A DNA stretch of 64,000 nucleotides from Candidatus Thalassarchaeaceae archaeon. Its GTDB lineage: Archaea; Thermoplasmatota; Poseidoniia; Poseidoniales; Thalassarchaeaceae. The notes below the pieces were generated by a model. It saw nothing but the letters and a program-made list of their open reading frames with translations, was not told the origin of the DNA and searched no databases. Numbering within the stretch: position 1 is the first letter of the stretch; each line of letters begins with the position of its first letter. Shown piece by piece: positions 15,598-22,089 of this stretch. The stretch is from NCBI GenBank assembly GCA_029250605.1, contig JAQXEZ010000012.1:1-64000 (forward strand), written 5' to 3'. A program made the position numbers and the translations under genes.

Positions 15598-17343
15598 GTG
15601 CCCTCATATGTTGCCCATCCGGGATTGGTCTCAGAAACGATTCAGGCTAGGGCATACCAACTCCAAGCAGTAGATGATGCCATGGCTGGGTCGATGCTGT
15701 TGATTCTACCTACTGCTGCTGGGAAGACTGCTGTCGCGTGGTTATCCATAATCGAGAGATTGGAAAGAACAGGGGGATGGGCATTGGTAATCGCCCCGAC
15801 CGTTGCCCTCTCGAATCAACATCTGGAAAATGCAATCCCCGTTCTTTCCAATATTTCCGAATTGAATCCAATTTCACTTAGTGGGCAGCAAACAGCATCC
15901 AAGAGACCCGAACTATGGAAGGATTCGAGATTGGTGTTCGCAACCCCACAGGTCGTTAGGAATGATGTGAGAAAGGGAGTTCTTTCTCTTGGCGATTGTA
16001 GTATACTTGTTGTCGATGAAGCACATCATTGCACGGGAGAACATGCCATGGCAGAGGTTGCTGAGATGTATATCTCCCAGTCCCAAAGTCCACTGATTCT
16101 AGCAACTACGGCAAGCCCCGGCTCTAGAAGGGAGCAAGTACAGGAGATATGCAGGAGGTTGGGAGTCCAAAAAATACACATGAGAACGAAGGAAGATCCC
16201 ATGGTTGCAGAATTTCTCTCAGAGCTTGATGTTGAGGAAGTTGGAGTGGAGGTTCCTAGCGAGATCAGAGAACTGGCAGAGCCGTTCAGGATTTGGCAAG
16301 AAGGGATAGTCGACAGAGAACGTAGGAGTGGAAGGTACGTGATGCCGGGAACGATTAATCAGGCTGGTTTATCGAATGCAATGGAACGTGCTCAGGCGGC
16401 CATCGGCAGGGGGGATAAGAGTGGTTTCAGATCATCTTCGCAGATAGCAACTGCAATGAGGCTCCATCATCTGATTAACCATCTCCTCTGTCAAGGGATA
16501 GCCGCATCTAGGCATTTCCTCTCGAGGATGGAGGGTGGGGAAGAGAAGAGTAAATCTTCGAGGGATTTCCTCAGAGACGGGAGAGTAAGGAGGCTGTCTG
16601 CCAGCCTCAAGGGCATGGCCGAGGTACATTCCAAGGTCGGAGCAGTGAGGAGGCTCGTCAGGGAAAGGATCCGGAGAGACAATGGGTCAAGAATCATTGT
16701 TTTCGCCAACTACAGGGACACGGTGGAAGCTCTCGAGGGTGCGCTGTCTGACCTCAATGGCATCAGGGCGATTCAGTTCATCGGACAGTCGCGTCGTTCC
16801 GGTTCGGGAGGACTAACTGCGAAGCAACAGATATCAAGACTTTCCGAGTTCAGGGAAGGAGGGGCAAATGTACTGGTTGCAACTTCAGTTGGCGAAGAGG
16901 GTTTGGACATCCCGAGTGCCGACCTTGTCATTTTCTATGAACCTGTATCGAGCGAAATCCGGACCATCCAGAGGAGGGGTAGGACTGGTAGAAGGAGGCA
17001 GGGAGAGGTGGTTGTCCTTGTTGCCGAGGGTACAAGGGACGAGGGGGCCAAAGACTCTGCTAAGAGGAAGGAGGAATTCATGCACAAGGCCGCTAGGAGG
17101 GTCGCTAGAGAGCTTCCCGGTAGCCCTCACAAGGATTTATCGAACTTGGAGAGGTTCTCCGTATCCTCTGATGGAGGGATCTGCTCAGCAGCCGAATTCG
17201 TACTCGAAACCAGAGAACGCCACAAGAGTGACCTTTCTGGGACCGACGCCACCACTGCCAAGGACCCAAAGAGGTCCCCCAATGCTGATCCCCCCCCTGG
17301 GAACTTCAGACCCGCGGGACAGACGGGGCTGGACCAGTTCTAG
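15598..17343 (+). CDS. SF2 DEAD/DEAH helicase, Hef/FANCM helicase-domain type, no recognisable ERCC4 nuclease domain
   Basis: Walker A LILPTAAGKTAVAWL, DEAH (LVVDEAHHCTGEHAM), TTASPGSRREQVQEICRRLG, VATSVGEEGLDIPSADLVIFYEPVSSEIRTIQRRGRTGR; GTG start. Confidence 0.87.
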   Translation: MPSYVAHPGLVSETIQARAYQLQAVDDAMAGSMLLILPTAAGKTAVAWLSIIERLERTGGWALVIAPTVALSNQHLENAIPVLSNISELNPISLSGQQTASKRPELWKDSRLVFATPQVVRNDVRKGVLSLGDCSILVVDEAHHCTGEHAMAEVAEMYISQSQSPLILATTASPGSRREQVQEICRRLGVQKIHMRTKEDPMVAEFLSELDVEEVGVEVPSEIRELAEPFRIWQEGIVDRERRSGRYVMPGTINQAGLSNAMERAQAAIGRGDKSGFRSSSQIATAMRLHHLINHLLCQGIAASRHFLSRMEGGEEKSKSSRDFLRDGRVRRLSASLKGMAEVHSKVGAVRRLVRERIRRDNGSRIIVFANYRDTVEALEGALSDLNGIRAIQFIGQSRRSGSGGLTAKQQISRLSEFREGGANVLVATSVGEEGLDIPSADLVIFYEPVSSEIRTIQRRGRTGRRRQGEVVVLVAEGTRDEGAKDSAKRKEEFMHKAARRVARELPGSPHKDLSNLERFSVSSDGGICSAAEFVLETRERHKSDLSGTDATTAKDPKRSPNADPPPGNFRPAGQTGLDQF

Positions 17344-18200
17344 TCACCGATTACGGCTATCCTAGTGCGGAGCTGGGCCAAGCGGTTGTTGTAGTGGCCC
17401 ATTGCGAATGCGAGCATCTCAGTCAAGTGGATCACTGGGATATTTGTGGATAAACCGGCTGCCCTGCCTGCCTTTCCTTGGTATACGTCGAGTGCGGTGT
17501 GGGAAAGAGTGCATGCGCTGACGATCATCGCCGCCCCCTCCGACTTTGCATCGTCGATAGTGGATGCAATCTGGCGCAGGACCGTAGCCTCCTCCGAGAA
17601 AAGACCCGGTACGCCAACGCTTTGCGTCCTGCTCTCCCAGAGAATCGGCTCCCCGCCCAGTGCTTTGATTAGCATCTCTAGGTACTGGGGATCGAAAACA
17701 TCGTCTTCGCCACAGGCCCCCGCCTGCTGCATATTTGGACCATAGAATCCGGCTATCGGGAAGTCGATCGGATTGCGTACATTCTGACTCACCTTGTCCA
17801 GGCCAATCTCATCGACGATGACATGCAGTAGGTGATGCACGCCTATATCGCCAGACATCGTGAGACCTGTGGTGCGCTGTAGTATCTCGTTGGTCTTTGC
17901 GAGAAGTAGGGAGTCCCGCTTCAACCTGGCAAGGTCCTCGTTGAGGTTCCCCGCTGTTGCTGCACACGGGGTGATGATGTCCATGCCCATGGATTCAGCG
18001 ATCGCGAAGTTGCGTGCGTTGAGAGTCACTTGAAGCAAGTCGTTTGCTTGCCTGATAATCCCTGCTCCGCAACTAGTTGCACCATGCATGGGAAATAGTT
18101 CGATGCCAAGGGAGCGGGCGGTGGGCTCCATGGTCTGGGAAACCTCGGTGGCGCTGCTGTGGGCAATGTTTCCAGGGTGATATGCGTACTTCAGTGCCAT
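17340..18200 (-). CDS. HdrB/SdhE-like CCG-domain-fold protein with most cluster-ligand cysteines substituted
   Basis: Aligns by eye with the CCG architecture (YAYHPGN, GATSCGAG, ITPCAATAGNLNEDL, GVHHLLHVIVDEIGLDKV, AGFYGP, ALGGEP, MIVSACTLSH, IPVIHLTEMLAFAMG), but most canonical Cys positions are replaced. Confidence 0.72.
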   Translation of the reverse strand: MALKYAYHPGNIAHSSATEVSQTMEPTARSLGIELFPMHGATSCGAGIIRQANDLLQVTLNARNFAIAESMGMDIITPCAATAGNLNEDLARLKRDSLLLAKTNEILQRTTGLTMSGDIGVHHLLHVIVDEIGLDKVSQNVRNPIDFPIAGFYGPNMQQAGACGEDDVFDPQYLEMLIKALGGEPILWESRTQSVGVPGLFSEEATVLRQIASTIDDAKSEGAAMIVSACTLSHTALDVYQGKAGRAAGLSTNIPVIHLTEMLAFAMGHYNNRLAQLRTRIAVIGD

Positions 18201-20377
18201 CAGAACCTACCATCCATCTCGTTGAAAATCGCAACTACCTCGTGATGATTCTCTACAGAGGAGTTGAATTGCTTGGGCATCTTTCCTATTCCGGCTGGAG
18301 GGGCCACCATTCCCAGCATCCCGTTGAAAACGTTGCCACCGGTCCTTGTGAAGCCCAGGACCATTCGAGCGGTAACTCCCGAGAACAGGTTGCCGAGAAG
18401 CGCAAAGGGACCTAGGGCTTGCCTATAGATTACGGTGTCATTGACCATTCCGCTGCTCTTAACAGTCCAAGTGTACCACCAAACGTGCTTACCGTGCTTG
18501 CCGTTGAAGCCATCTCCGGTTAGTACTGAGTTCTTCGCGACTAGCAGTGAATCGGAGACGGCCCTCGGGACAGAAGGCTGACGATTTATCGAGGCAAGGT
18601 CGGTCTCGGCCTTAATCCCATTAGGGGAGGATAGCATTTTGTCGATTTCCTCTACCTTGTAGGGGGAGGTCCTAGGGTCGTTCCTCCTGGACCATGTGGA
18701 GGCAATGACTGCGGGTCCGAGGTACCCATTTGCATGAGGGACAGCGTCAGAACTGGAGTGGAGTATGTTCTGGCTGCCGAAGTCCTTCATCGAGTGTAAA
18801 CTGGAGGCGATCGGGGGGTCCATCGTCCCCATCACGCCTTGAGGCGTGTTGGCCCCCTCCCTAGTGGCGGCGACCATCCATGGATCGCTTGATTCCCTCT
18901 TCCTCTCTAACAACCATGGGTCTATGGCCAAGTCCCTGATTACCTCGAATCCCGGGAGGGGCTCAATCCTCAGGGAAACCGAGCCTTCCCTCATTGGTGC
19001 GGCAGAGTCGAGGCGGCAGAGTCCTGGTAAAACTAGGCGGCCGTTAATCGAAATCGCTGTATTGGAATCGTCTGGATAACCATCGCGGAATGTCAGAGTC
19101 CCATCTTGGGTTGCCTTGAGTGTCCTCAGGACCTCCAGTACCGACATGTGCCCCGGTAGAGAGCATAGCCAAGTATCGGTTCCTGTGCTGGAAGTCTCTG
19201 GATCATACCTGAAGACACTGACACTCGCCTGAACGGGTTCGGATTTGACCTCAGGCATGGAGAAGCCATCCTCCCCCTCTGCACCGGCTGAAGAACCGCT
19301 GGCGTACATCTTGATCGCATCCACCATTTCCTCGTGGAAGCGTCCGGTGCTATCCACAGCAGCTAGCTTTGGAAGGGCTTCCAATATCCACTCAGCCGCT
19401 GGTGCATCATAGTCAACATCGCAGTCTAGCCGGTCAATTATTCGGGTAGCACCGAGTTTCTCCAACTGGCCATCCCAGTCCTTGCCAGACTGGCAGAATA
19501 ACTCGTAGCTCGTGTCTCCCAGAGCGCAAATTGCGAAGTGGACCCCTTCTAGGCGAGACGCTGAGTCGGAGATTGCGAATTGCCAGAGATCCTCTGCATT
19601 GTCGGGCATCTCCCCCTCCCCCCAGGTGGAGCAAACAATTAGCACGCGCTTCTTCCCAGAGAGTGAGTTGAAGTCGAAGCCATCCATGTCGTGGACCTCT
19701 CCCTCAAGGCCGTATGACTTTGCATCCTTCGAGATCTTAGCGGCAAGTCCCTCTGAGTTTCCAGACTGGGACCCGAATAGCAGAATTAGCGACCTATCGC
19801 CCGAGGATACTAGGCCCTCCAGGTCACCGCTATCTGTTTCGACCTGAGATTCCGATTCCCCGTCCCCTGATGGTTCCTCAGATTGGTCAGAAGGTTCCTC
19901 TTCGGAAGGATTCTCCGCCCCGGTTCCTGAGGACGCAATCAGAGAAAGGGCATTGGTCGTGAATTCTGCAGCTGGATCGTCATATTCGACATCGCAATCG
20001 ACCCTGCCGAGGAGCCTGTTTGCACCTTGCTTCTCAAACCAGCCATCCCAGTCCTTGCCGGACTGGCAGAAGAACTCGTAGCTCGTGTCCCCCAGAGCAC
20101 ATACAGCGAAGTTGCACCCCGACATTGACGGTGGCGAGTCCCCGTTGGCCGCTTCCCAGAGGTCGACTGCATTGTCTGGCATCTCCCCCTCCCCCCAAGT
20201 GCTACAGAAAATCAGGATGTTCTGGTAATTGGGTAGGTCCTCGACTTCGACTTCGTCCATCCCCTTCACGGAGGGAGTCAAGCCGAGAGATTTGGCCTGC
20301 TTCTCGGCTATGGTTGCCAAGTCTTCAGAGTTTCCTGACTCGGATCCAAACAGTATCAACAGAGGGGGGACCGACAA
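18200..20377 (-). CDS. Tandem flavodoxin domains fused to an SdhB/TfrB-like domain lacking Fe-S cysteines (TTG start)
   Basis: Two flavodoxin modules (FGSESGNSEDLA...STWGEGEMPDNA...CALGDTSYEFFCQSGKDWD; FGSQSGNSEGLA...STWGEGEMPDNA...CALGDTSYELFCQSGKDWD), then SVFRYDPE...MSVLEVLRTLKATQDGTLTFR...ISINGRLVL...IEPLPGFEVIRDLAIDPWLLERKRESSDPWM (SdhB-like). Confidence 0.8.
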   Translation of the reverse strand: MSVPPLLILFGSESGNSEDLATIAEKQAKSLGLTPSVKGMDEVEVEDLPNYQNILIFCSTWGEGEMPDNAVDLWEAANGDSPPSMSGCNFAVCALGDTSYEFFCQSGKDWDGWFEKQGANRLLGRVDCDVEYDDPAAEFTTNALSLIASSGTGAENPSEEEPSDQSEEPSGDGESESQVETDSGDLEGLVSSGDRSLILLFGSQSGNSEGLAAKISKDAKSYGLEGEVHDMDGFDFNSLSGKKRVLIVCSTWGEGEMPDNAEDLWQFAISDSASRLEGVHFAICALGDTSYELFCQSGKDWDGQLEKLGATRIIDRLDCDVDYDAPAAEWILEALPKLAAVDSTGRFHEEMVDAIKMYASGSSAGAEGEDGFSMPEVKSEPVQASVSVFRYDPETSSTGTDTWLCSLPGHMSVLEVLRTLKATQDGTLTFRDGYPDDSNTAISINGRLVLPGLCRLDSAAPMREGSVSLRIEPLPGFEVIRDLAIDPWLLERKRESSDPWMVAATREGANTPQGVMGTMDPPIASSLHSMKDFGSQNILHSSSDAVPHANGYLGPAVIASTWSRRNDPRTSPYKVEEIDKMLSSPNGIKAETDLASINRQPSVPRAVSDSLLVAKNSVLTGDGFNGKHGKHVWWYTWTVKSSGMVNDTVIYRQALGPFALLGNLFSGVTARMVLGFTRTGGNVFNGMLGMVAPPAGIGKMPKQFNSSVENHHEVVAIFNEMDGRF

Positions 20378-20387
20378 GACATCACCT

Positions 20388-20406
20388 ACCCAGCCTTAGG
20401 CTGGGT
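20388..20406. promoter_or_regulatory. Perfect 8-bp inverted repeat (ACCCAGCC-TTA-GGCTGGGT) just upstream of the flavodoxin fusion start
   Basis: Read directly; 11 bp upstream of the predicted TTG start, minus-strand gene. Confidence 0.7.
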
Positions 20407-20481: not shown

Positions 20482-22089
20482 TCACATGTCCATTGCATCG
20501 AAGTCTTCTGGCATTGGCCCTGCTCCCTTGCTGGAGATCACATCGTCAATTCTCAGAATCATCACTGCTGTCTCGGATGCGCTCTGAATCGCCTGCTCTA
20601 CTACACGGCTGGGTTCGAATACCTTGGCCTTGGCCATGTCTACTACTCCACCCTTGTAGACATTCACCCCATGAGTTGACTTGCCCTCTGAATGCGCCTT
20701 CCTAAGGTCGATTATCGTATTCACGGGATCTAGTCCGGCATTCTCGGCGAGAGTCCTGGGGATCACCTCAAGAGCGCTGGAGAATGCCTCTATCGCCATC
20801 TGCTCCCTGCCACCGGTTGACTCCGCGAATAATCTGAGGTCCCTGCTAAGTGCGGCTATCACTGAGCCTCCCCCGGTTAGAACTGCCCCGTCCTCGTGGG
20901 CCACCGCGACCACTCCGATTGCATCCTCGAAGGCTCGCTTCACCTCGTCGACCACGTGCTCGGTACCGCCCCTAAGAAGAACTGAGACGCTCTTTGCTTG
21001 GGGGCACCCTTCAACGAACACCATGTCCGAGTCGCCTATCTTCCTCTCCTCGACCTTAGAGGCTGAACCGAGATCTCCCTCGGAGAGGTCATCCAGATTG
21101 TTTACTATCCTTCCACCGGTCGCCTTTGATAGGGCCTCCATATCGCTCTTCTTCGCCCTTCTGATTGCAAAGATCCCAGACTTTGCCATGCAGTGCTGGG
21201 CCAAGTCATCGATTCCCTTCTGGCAAATTACCGTGTTTGCTCCGCTTTCTACAATCTTGTCTACTAGGGACCTCAGGAATTGCTCCTCTTCGTCTAGGAA
21301 CTGAGAAAGCATGTTCGGGTCTGTGATCTGGATCTTTGCGTCCACCTCTGTCTTCTTCACCTCGATGGCAGAGTTCACAAGTGCAATCTTAGCATTGGCC
21401 ACGCTCCTGGGCATGCCGCTGTGAACCCTCTCTTTGTCGAGAATGATTCCGTCGACAAGGGTGCTATCCCTGATGGAACCTCCTTGCTTCTTCTGGACCT
21501 TGATGTCGTCCAAGTCAACAATTGCTCGATCGTCACCCTCCTGGGCAACGGACAGGACAGCCTTCACGCTAATGTCCGAGAGGAATTCCTTCACAGCACC
21601 AGTGCTCTTTCCCGTCAATGCTGTCTTGGCTACCTCTGTGAGCATCTTTTCGTCGACTCCGGCCCCGTGCGAGTCGATCAACTCAACGGCCTTGTCAGAA
21701 GCCAGCCTGAAACCCTCGCAGATGACTGTTGGATGTACATTCTGGTCGACCAACTCCTCGCTCCTCTTCAGGAGCTCCCCCGCAATCACAACCGCGCTAG
21801 TTGTTCCGTCGAAACAGTGCTGCTCCTGTGTCTTTGCGATTTCGATAATCATCTTGGCTGCGGGATGCTCGATTTCCATCTCCTTCAGTATTGTAGCCCC
21901 GTCATTGGTGATTACCACATCTCCCATTGAGTCTACGAGCATCTTGTCCATGCCCTTCGGGCCCAGAGTCGACCTAACTGCGTCGGCTACTGCCTTTGCT
22001 GCGGCGATGTTGTTGCTCTGGGCTCCCTTTCCGCTAGTCCTAGTTGTTCCCTCTTTCAGAATGAAGATTGGTTGTTGTCCGTTATACAT
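20482..22089 (-). CDS. thsA: Thermosome (group II chaperonin) subunit
   Basis: [48 protein letters not shown]-like [14 protein letters not shown]. Confidence 0.97.

Follow-up and report, generated by a model that had tools for sequence, protein, structure and literature searches.

The E-type succinate dehydrogenase/8-methylmenaquinol:fumarate reductase, SdhABE, is known from Wolinella and Acidianus, and its SdhE subunit carries a 10-cysteine motif (PMC2680327). The replacement of ferredoxin by flavodoxin under iron limitation is also known from algae and bacteria, where the carriers are encoded by separate genes (PMC5322553, PMC10287166). As far as the part of the survey considered here goes, Marine Group II archaea are without cultured isolates and are credited with a canonical succinate dehydrogenase (SDH), with no mention of flavodoxin (PMC6336850). 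The locus reported here lies in a 64,000-nucleotide stretch of DNA (the window), contig C2 of a Marine Group II genome, and recalls each of these systems without conforming to any of them. Like SdhABE, it encodes full-length homologues of the B and E subunits (hereafter SdhB' and SdhE') in adjacent genes that retain the B-E order. Unlike SdhABE, its SdhB' has lost all clusters and SdhE' one or both, SdhA is not adjacent to the pair, and flavodoxin or ferredoxin modules are fused to SdhB'. The parts are thus recognisable families, and the complex cannot be classed as a member of either SDH or Hdr.

The fusion gene occupies positions 18200-20377 of the minus strand and encodes 725 residues. The initial annotation had proposed this open reading frame without naming its strand; the translation, the domain content and the presence of homologues across the order indicate that it is real. 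Two N-terminal flavodoxin domains with their signatures had likewise been predicted, and Pfam does recover two Flavodoxin_1 domains (E 8e-66), both of the CysJ type: Fld1 (residues 6-137, 19967-20362), the exchangeable N-terminal module, and Fld2 (residues 196-329, 19391-19792), which also has a PDB match and is present in nearly all homologues. The FMN-binding loops (the phosphate-binding loop, the STWGEGE loop and the ALGDTSYE loop) are intact in both. SdhB' follows at residues 386-725 (18203-19222), and the fused SdhB-like module recognized by the initial annotation proves to have an overlapping downstream partner that it had overlooked: SdhE', a 286-residue homologue of HdrB and SdhE on the same strand (17340-18200), joined to SdhB' by a TGATG stop/start overlap at 18198-18202 from which we infer translational coupling. 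Upstream, a thermosome (chaperonin) gene on the minus strand (20482-22089) is a conserved flank across the order and lies outside the system. Between it and the start of the fusion, the minus strand holds a perfect 7-bp inverted repeat (CCCAGCC-TAA-GGCTGGG, 20389-20405), which could be a terminator, an attenuator or a chance occurrence.

An SdhB framework had been proposed for residues ~384-725. Profile and fold searches both recover SdhB, and the homology extends over the full length of residues 386-725. Residues 386-486 pass the Pfam gathering cut-off as Fer2_3 (E 1.6e-8) and the NCBIfam SdhB models cover residues 378-589, but plain HMM searches lose the signal in the C-terminal region. That region is spanned when hhalign sets the E-type SdhB profile against the profile of residues 386-725, with 306 columns aligned at a probability of 99.2 and E 1.4e-19. 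In a Foldseek search of the PDB with the AlphaFold2 model of SdhB', all matches down to rank 31 are SdhB/FrdB chains. The fold match (TM 0.33 of the query) is weak on its own because model confidence is low (pLDDT 61, from a 52-sequence alignment, with the C-terminal 80 residues at very low confidence in the absence of a partner), and the model is taken only as support. Intact E-type operons (SdhA-SdhB-SdhE, with all cysteines present) occur in families f6 and f27 of the Thermoplasmatota, and the fusion and its neighbour are shown to descend from the B and E subunits of an ancestral succinate dehydrogenase/fumarate reductase of this type in the phylum. The SdhB/TfrB-like origin assigned by the initial annotation was therefore sound, but this specific ancestor had gone unrecognised.

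Loss of the iron-sulfur ligands from SdhB' is equally firm. None of the 12 cysteine positions of E-type SdhB holds a cysteine in 86 of 88 genomes, and in the other two only position 69 does. Several former ligands are now fixed as other residues (C167 as Ser and C212 as Glu, each in 88/88), and the residues that flank the former clusters are conserved (RDL.VD, GP, DPR, G.LNE) where the ligands are not. In the window, the stretch without cysteines noted at 19022-19093 in place of the plant-type [2Fe-2S] loop now reads FRDGYPDDSNTAISINGRLVLPG and maps to 19022-19090 of the minus strand, by translation, profile alignment and ligand count. The CxxCxxCxxxCP clusters reported missing from the C-terminal region are indeed absent here, with their ligands replaced across the 88 homologues. 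Of the two outcomes that had been named as refutations, neither obtained: an SdhB relationship was recovered by both kinds of search, and close homologues lack the cysteines too, which is not the signature of isolated decay. Descent from SdhB, loss of the Fe-S ligands and fusion to flavin modules are thus all supported. A different cysteine, C20 of the SdhB' domain (in DTWxC, at about 19163-19165 of the window), is found in 84/88 SdhB' sequences; it is absent from E-type SdhB and lies outside the former cluster motifs.

The second subunit has followed a parallel course. SdhE' matches the NCBIfam families CoB_CoM_SS_B (E 8e-37) and MFR_anch_SdhE (E 5e-32), and its model (pLDDT 89) has the fold of HdrB (5odc, 8rvy; TM 0.89). 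Unlike HdrB, the SdhE' of the window has lost seven of the ten ligand cysteines of the two non-cubane clusters, and its CCG motifs fail; the three that remain give the pattern NSCCT+PSVCS, as opposed to CCCCC+CCCCC in E-type SdhE. Over 86 Poseidoniales sequences the ligand patterns fall into three states. Six genomes (family f1, genera g2 and g5; family f2, genera g15, g16 and g19) retain the full N-terminal CCCCC, their C-terminal set being broken. All others have NSCCT+PSVCS if they belong to f1 and NSDCS+PSVCS if they belong to f2, or patterns close to these. Hence, the C-terminal cluster is gone in all the Poseidoniales examined and the N-terminal one in most of them. From these three patterns and from family membership we infer that the former was lost before the radiation of the order, and the latter at least once in each family. 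In both families the N-terminal loss replaced Cys9 with Asn and Cys41 with Ser, apart from one f2 genome that has Gly at the latter position. These positions correspond to residues 11 and 43 of the window's SdhE', and both families also contain genomes with all five N-terminal cysteines; the identical changes may reflect either convergent loss or recombination. Two cysteines, C79 and C230 in window numbering, each the first of a former CxxC, are invariant in 86/86 sequences and are possible remaining redox residues. All full-length cases with a complete N-terminal cluster carry the ferredoxin form of the fusion, and with only five of them there are too few to claim an association. In one genome (G022, locus L008), SdhB' and SdhE' form a single 997-aa frame through a short deletion at the junction, which may be a natural fusion or an assembly error.

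The double flavodoxin described by the initial annotation is present here, but it is only one of two interchangeable states, since about half of the relatives have a ferredoxin as first module. Among 86 readable N-terminal regions, 44 combine a ferredoxin with a flavodoxin and 38 two flavodoxins, three have a single flavodoxin and one joins a ferredoxin directly to SdhB'. The ferredoxin module was identified as Pfam Fer4_13, of the [4Fe-4S] type. The SdhB' tree implies 16 switches between ferredoxin and flavodoxin, and for the double-flavodoxin label no fewer than 14 changes are required by well supported branches alone; both states coexist within eight genera (g1, g3, g8, g9, g10, f2g11, f2g12 and f2g15). 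Two close pairs of loci, L069/L073 and L059/L062, have an unrelated N-terminal module set between DNA that is ~85-98% identical both on the thermosome side and in SdhB'. The first-module flavodoxins, moreover, cluster mostly with one another and not with the second flavodoxin of their own protein, and that of L062, from a g9 genome, falls inside the g1 group, both on a short alignment with moderate support. These data demonstrate repeated module exchange, which is best read as cassette exchange by recombination, even if repeated independent duplication is not excluded everywhere. As in the replacement of free carriers, an Fe-S carrier is exchanged for an FMN carrier; unlike it, the exchange affects a covalently fused domain within one gene and recurs on the tree. 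Because most relatives carry, or had, a ferredoxin, complete freedom from iron was not the ancestral purpose of the system. The ferredoxin joined straight to SdhB', without any flavodoxin (L055, in genome G085), suggests that a single carrier module can suffice.

The nature of the flavodoxins bears on the source of electrons. Flavin relays had been envisaged for this protein, and fused flavin modules are supported, but their type had been missed: the fusion flavodoxins match CysJ, the flavoprotein of NADPH sulfite reductase, best (NCBIfam E 1.9e-80), and their best PDB match is 1ykg, the CysJ FMN domain. Being of the CysJ type, they indicate an NADPH reductase as the donor. The window's genome (G000) does encode a stand-alone 431-aa CysJ-type FAD/NADP half without an FMN domain (L275, C6:81728-83020), and 57/60 relatives possess such a half, which is fused to a flavodoxin domain of its own in five of the genomes read. 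The system thus resembles CysJ and the diflavin reductases in its flavodoxin domains and in its separate CysJ-type FAD/NADP half, and differs from CysJ in having the FMN domain on SdhB' and, in most genomes, a FAD/NADP half that is a protein of its own. A further difference is that genome G000 (86% complete) yielded no NiR/SiR hemoprotein (the sulfite reductase CysI). On the other hand, the NADPH/FAD half is unlinked to the fusion locus, and a free flavodoxin of the same genome (C4:145856-146335) is a possible alternative partner, which the half could even serve exclusively.

On this basis, we propose that the SdhB-SdhE pair has been demetallated and repurposed as a flavin-based electron-transfer complex, probably driven by NADPH, a reading to which we assign a probability of about 0.62 in the absence of any biochemical data. 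NADPH would supply electrons by way of the separate CysJ-type FAD half, an input inferred from the type of the flavodoxins, and these would then pass to an FMN on Fld2, whose binding is likewise inferred. Fld2 would reduce the outer module, be it the [4Fe-4S] ferredoxin or an FMN on Fld1, from which single electrons would reach an unidentified acceptor; this one-electron output is an inference, as is the formation of a complex between SdhB' and SdhE'. The two subunits would constitute its docking body, and SdhE' might act through its two invariant cysteines. As no recognisable cofactor site remains in SdhB', this subunit is most simply seen as a docking or conformational element.

No SdhA is found among the window ORFs at the SdhB'-SdhE' locus, and the same genome holds a canonical SdhC-SdhA-SdhB with intact cysteine motifs. 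It also encodes a second, divergent flavoprotein of the FrdA/SdhA superfamily (SdhA'; C19:175620-177050 in G000, L036:7618-9054), which is possibly this complex's original SdhA and is a candidate for third subunit or acceptor. If SdhA' were the catalytic subunit, its FAD would reduce or oxidise a new, non-dicarboxylate substrate. SdhA' is order-wide and monophyletic, it keeps the dinucleotide-binding (FAD) motif, and 19/19 sequences no longer have the catalytic Arg, the QHY substrate His or the substrate Arg, a set of features that would suit such a role. Counting only matches better than E 1e-40, it occurs in 54/60 genomes (the raw tally of 58/60 takes in canonical SdhA). Nonetheless, SdhA' is unlinked to SdhB' and gene neighbourhood gave no connection between them, AU tests (p 0.08-0.09) do not decide whether it stems from the E-type, the canonical or the NadB lineage, and no strong match was found in G016 (94% complete) or G056, both of which have SdhB'. 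A catalytic role for SdhA' is therefore possible, with the odds somewhat against it, and the connection is kept as a hypothesis; given that the AU tests cannot place it and that it was not found in every genome with SdhB', we do not claim SdhA' as a proven third subunit. In both families, SdhA' keeps the same neighbours, a HIT-family protein and an acyltransferase-like gene.

Alternatively, SdhB' and SdhE' might have no redox role themselves and serve as a structural or regulatory scaffold that places the flavodoxin/ferredoxin relay near a partner enzyme. A scaffold was among the roles first suggested for the SdhB part, and it is still possible there because no recognisable cofactor site is left; the very low confidence of the C-terminal 80 residues when modelled without a partner, and the retention of just two CCG cysteines in all SdhE' sequences, point the same way. 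The universality of those two cysteines and the complete N-terminal cluster motif of six genomes tell against it, however, and together suggest that the site in SdhE' was redox-active until recently, which makes a purely structural role for the pair unlikely.

The repurposed electron-transfer pair that we favour must also be set against a far less probable scheme, in which SdhB' takes the place of SdhB beside canonical SdhA and so spares iron in succinate oxidation under iron shortage. The N-terminal domain of SdhB contacts SdhA in SDH structures, SdhB' retains this domain, and canonical SdhA is present in the same genome. Yet SdhB' resembles E-type SdhB and not the canonical SdhB that sits beside that SdhA, and both SdhB' and SdhE' are encoded away from canonical SDH. 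The potential of succinate is about +30 mV, and electron flow from it to low-potential flavodoxins would be uphill.

The pair is also widespread. Strong SdhB' profile matches were found in about 209 of the class's 245 genomes, after eight weak matches (five in f3 and three in f2) were taken off a total of 217, and SdhE' is as widespread as SdhB' in the order; the same class-wide search gave no strong SdhB' match in the sister group f3. Only strong matches were counted, the raw profile tally for the fusion (55/60) taking in free flavodoxins. In the GTDB species collection, the named SdhB' matches belong, so far as their titles show, to Ca. Poseidoniales/Thalassarchaeaceae, the others being titled only Euryarchaeota or Thermoplasmatota archaeon; the nearest comes from Marine Group II euryarchaeote MED-G35, whose SdhB' part matches at 96%. 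Gene order (thermosome, fusion, SdhE') is common to both Poseidoniales families. Conservation in related genomes, proposed at the outset as a check, is thus satisfied: the pair is nearly universal and syntenic, and the cysteines are absent in relatives. Across 15 close pairs, dN/dS is 0.015-0.11 for SdhB' and 0.005-0.07 for SdhE', which demonstrates that the pair is retained by strong purifying selection. The loss of every ligand residue might suggest a decaying pseudogene pair, but these dN/dS values, the lack of stop codons in SdhB' matches, the near-universality and the synteny refute it. Sequencing error is ruled out on the same grounds of dN/dS and breadth of occurrence. Given this constraint, spread and synteny, and the canonical SDH alongside, the pair represents neither a replacement of SDH nor a case of decay.

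In the window's genome, the SdhB'-SdhE' pair is without any recognisable iron site, and the exchange of even the last ferredoxin module for a second flavodoxin looks like the iron-saving rebuilding of an entire electron-transfer complex. Only tentatively, and at less than even odds, can we go further and picture an SDH/Hdr-derived complex converted stepwise from iron-sulfur to flavin, with some lineages, that of the window included, iron-free in both pair and carriers, and with the last iron site as a cassette swapped by recombination, possibly tracking iron supply. The initial annotation had regarded an SdhB-like module without Fe-S and with its own flavin relays as not known to be described, and a search of the open-licence literature brought up no earlier account of one; nor did that literature yield an SDH-derived pair with erased clusters, recurrent ferredoxin/flavodoxin domain exchange in one gene, or any link between Poseidoniales or Marine Group II and such a protein. 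If the proposed reading holds, the Fe-S wiring of this complex was removed piecewise, the protein body was kept and flavin wiring was added, and living representatives of the stages in between are found in sister genera. It is a long-standing idea that low-iron surface oceans drive flavin chemistry to replace Fe-S chemistry. This replacement would become testable per domain, with the ratio of ferredoxin to flavodoxin cassettes countable at one locus in marine metagenomes. More generally, the Marine Group II archaea, which are abundant in the ocean, would possess a redox system that is nearly universal among them and has gone unrecognised.
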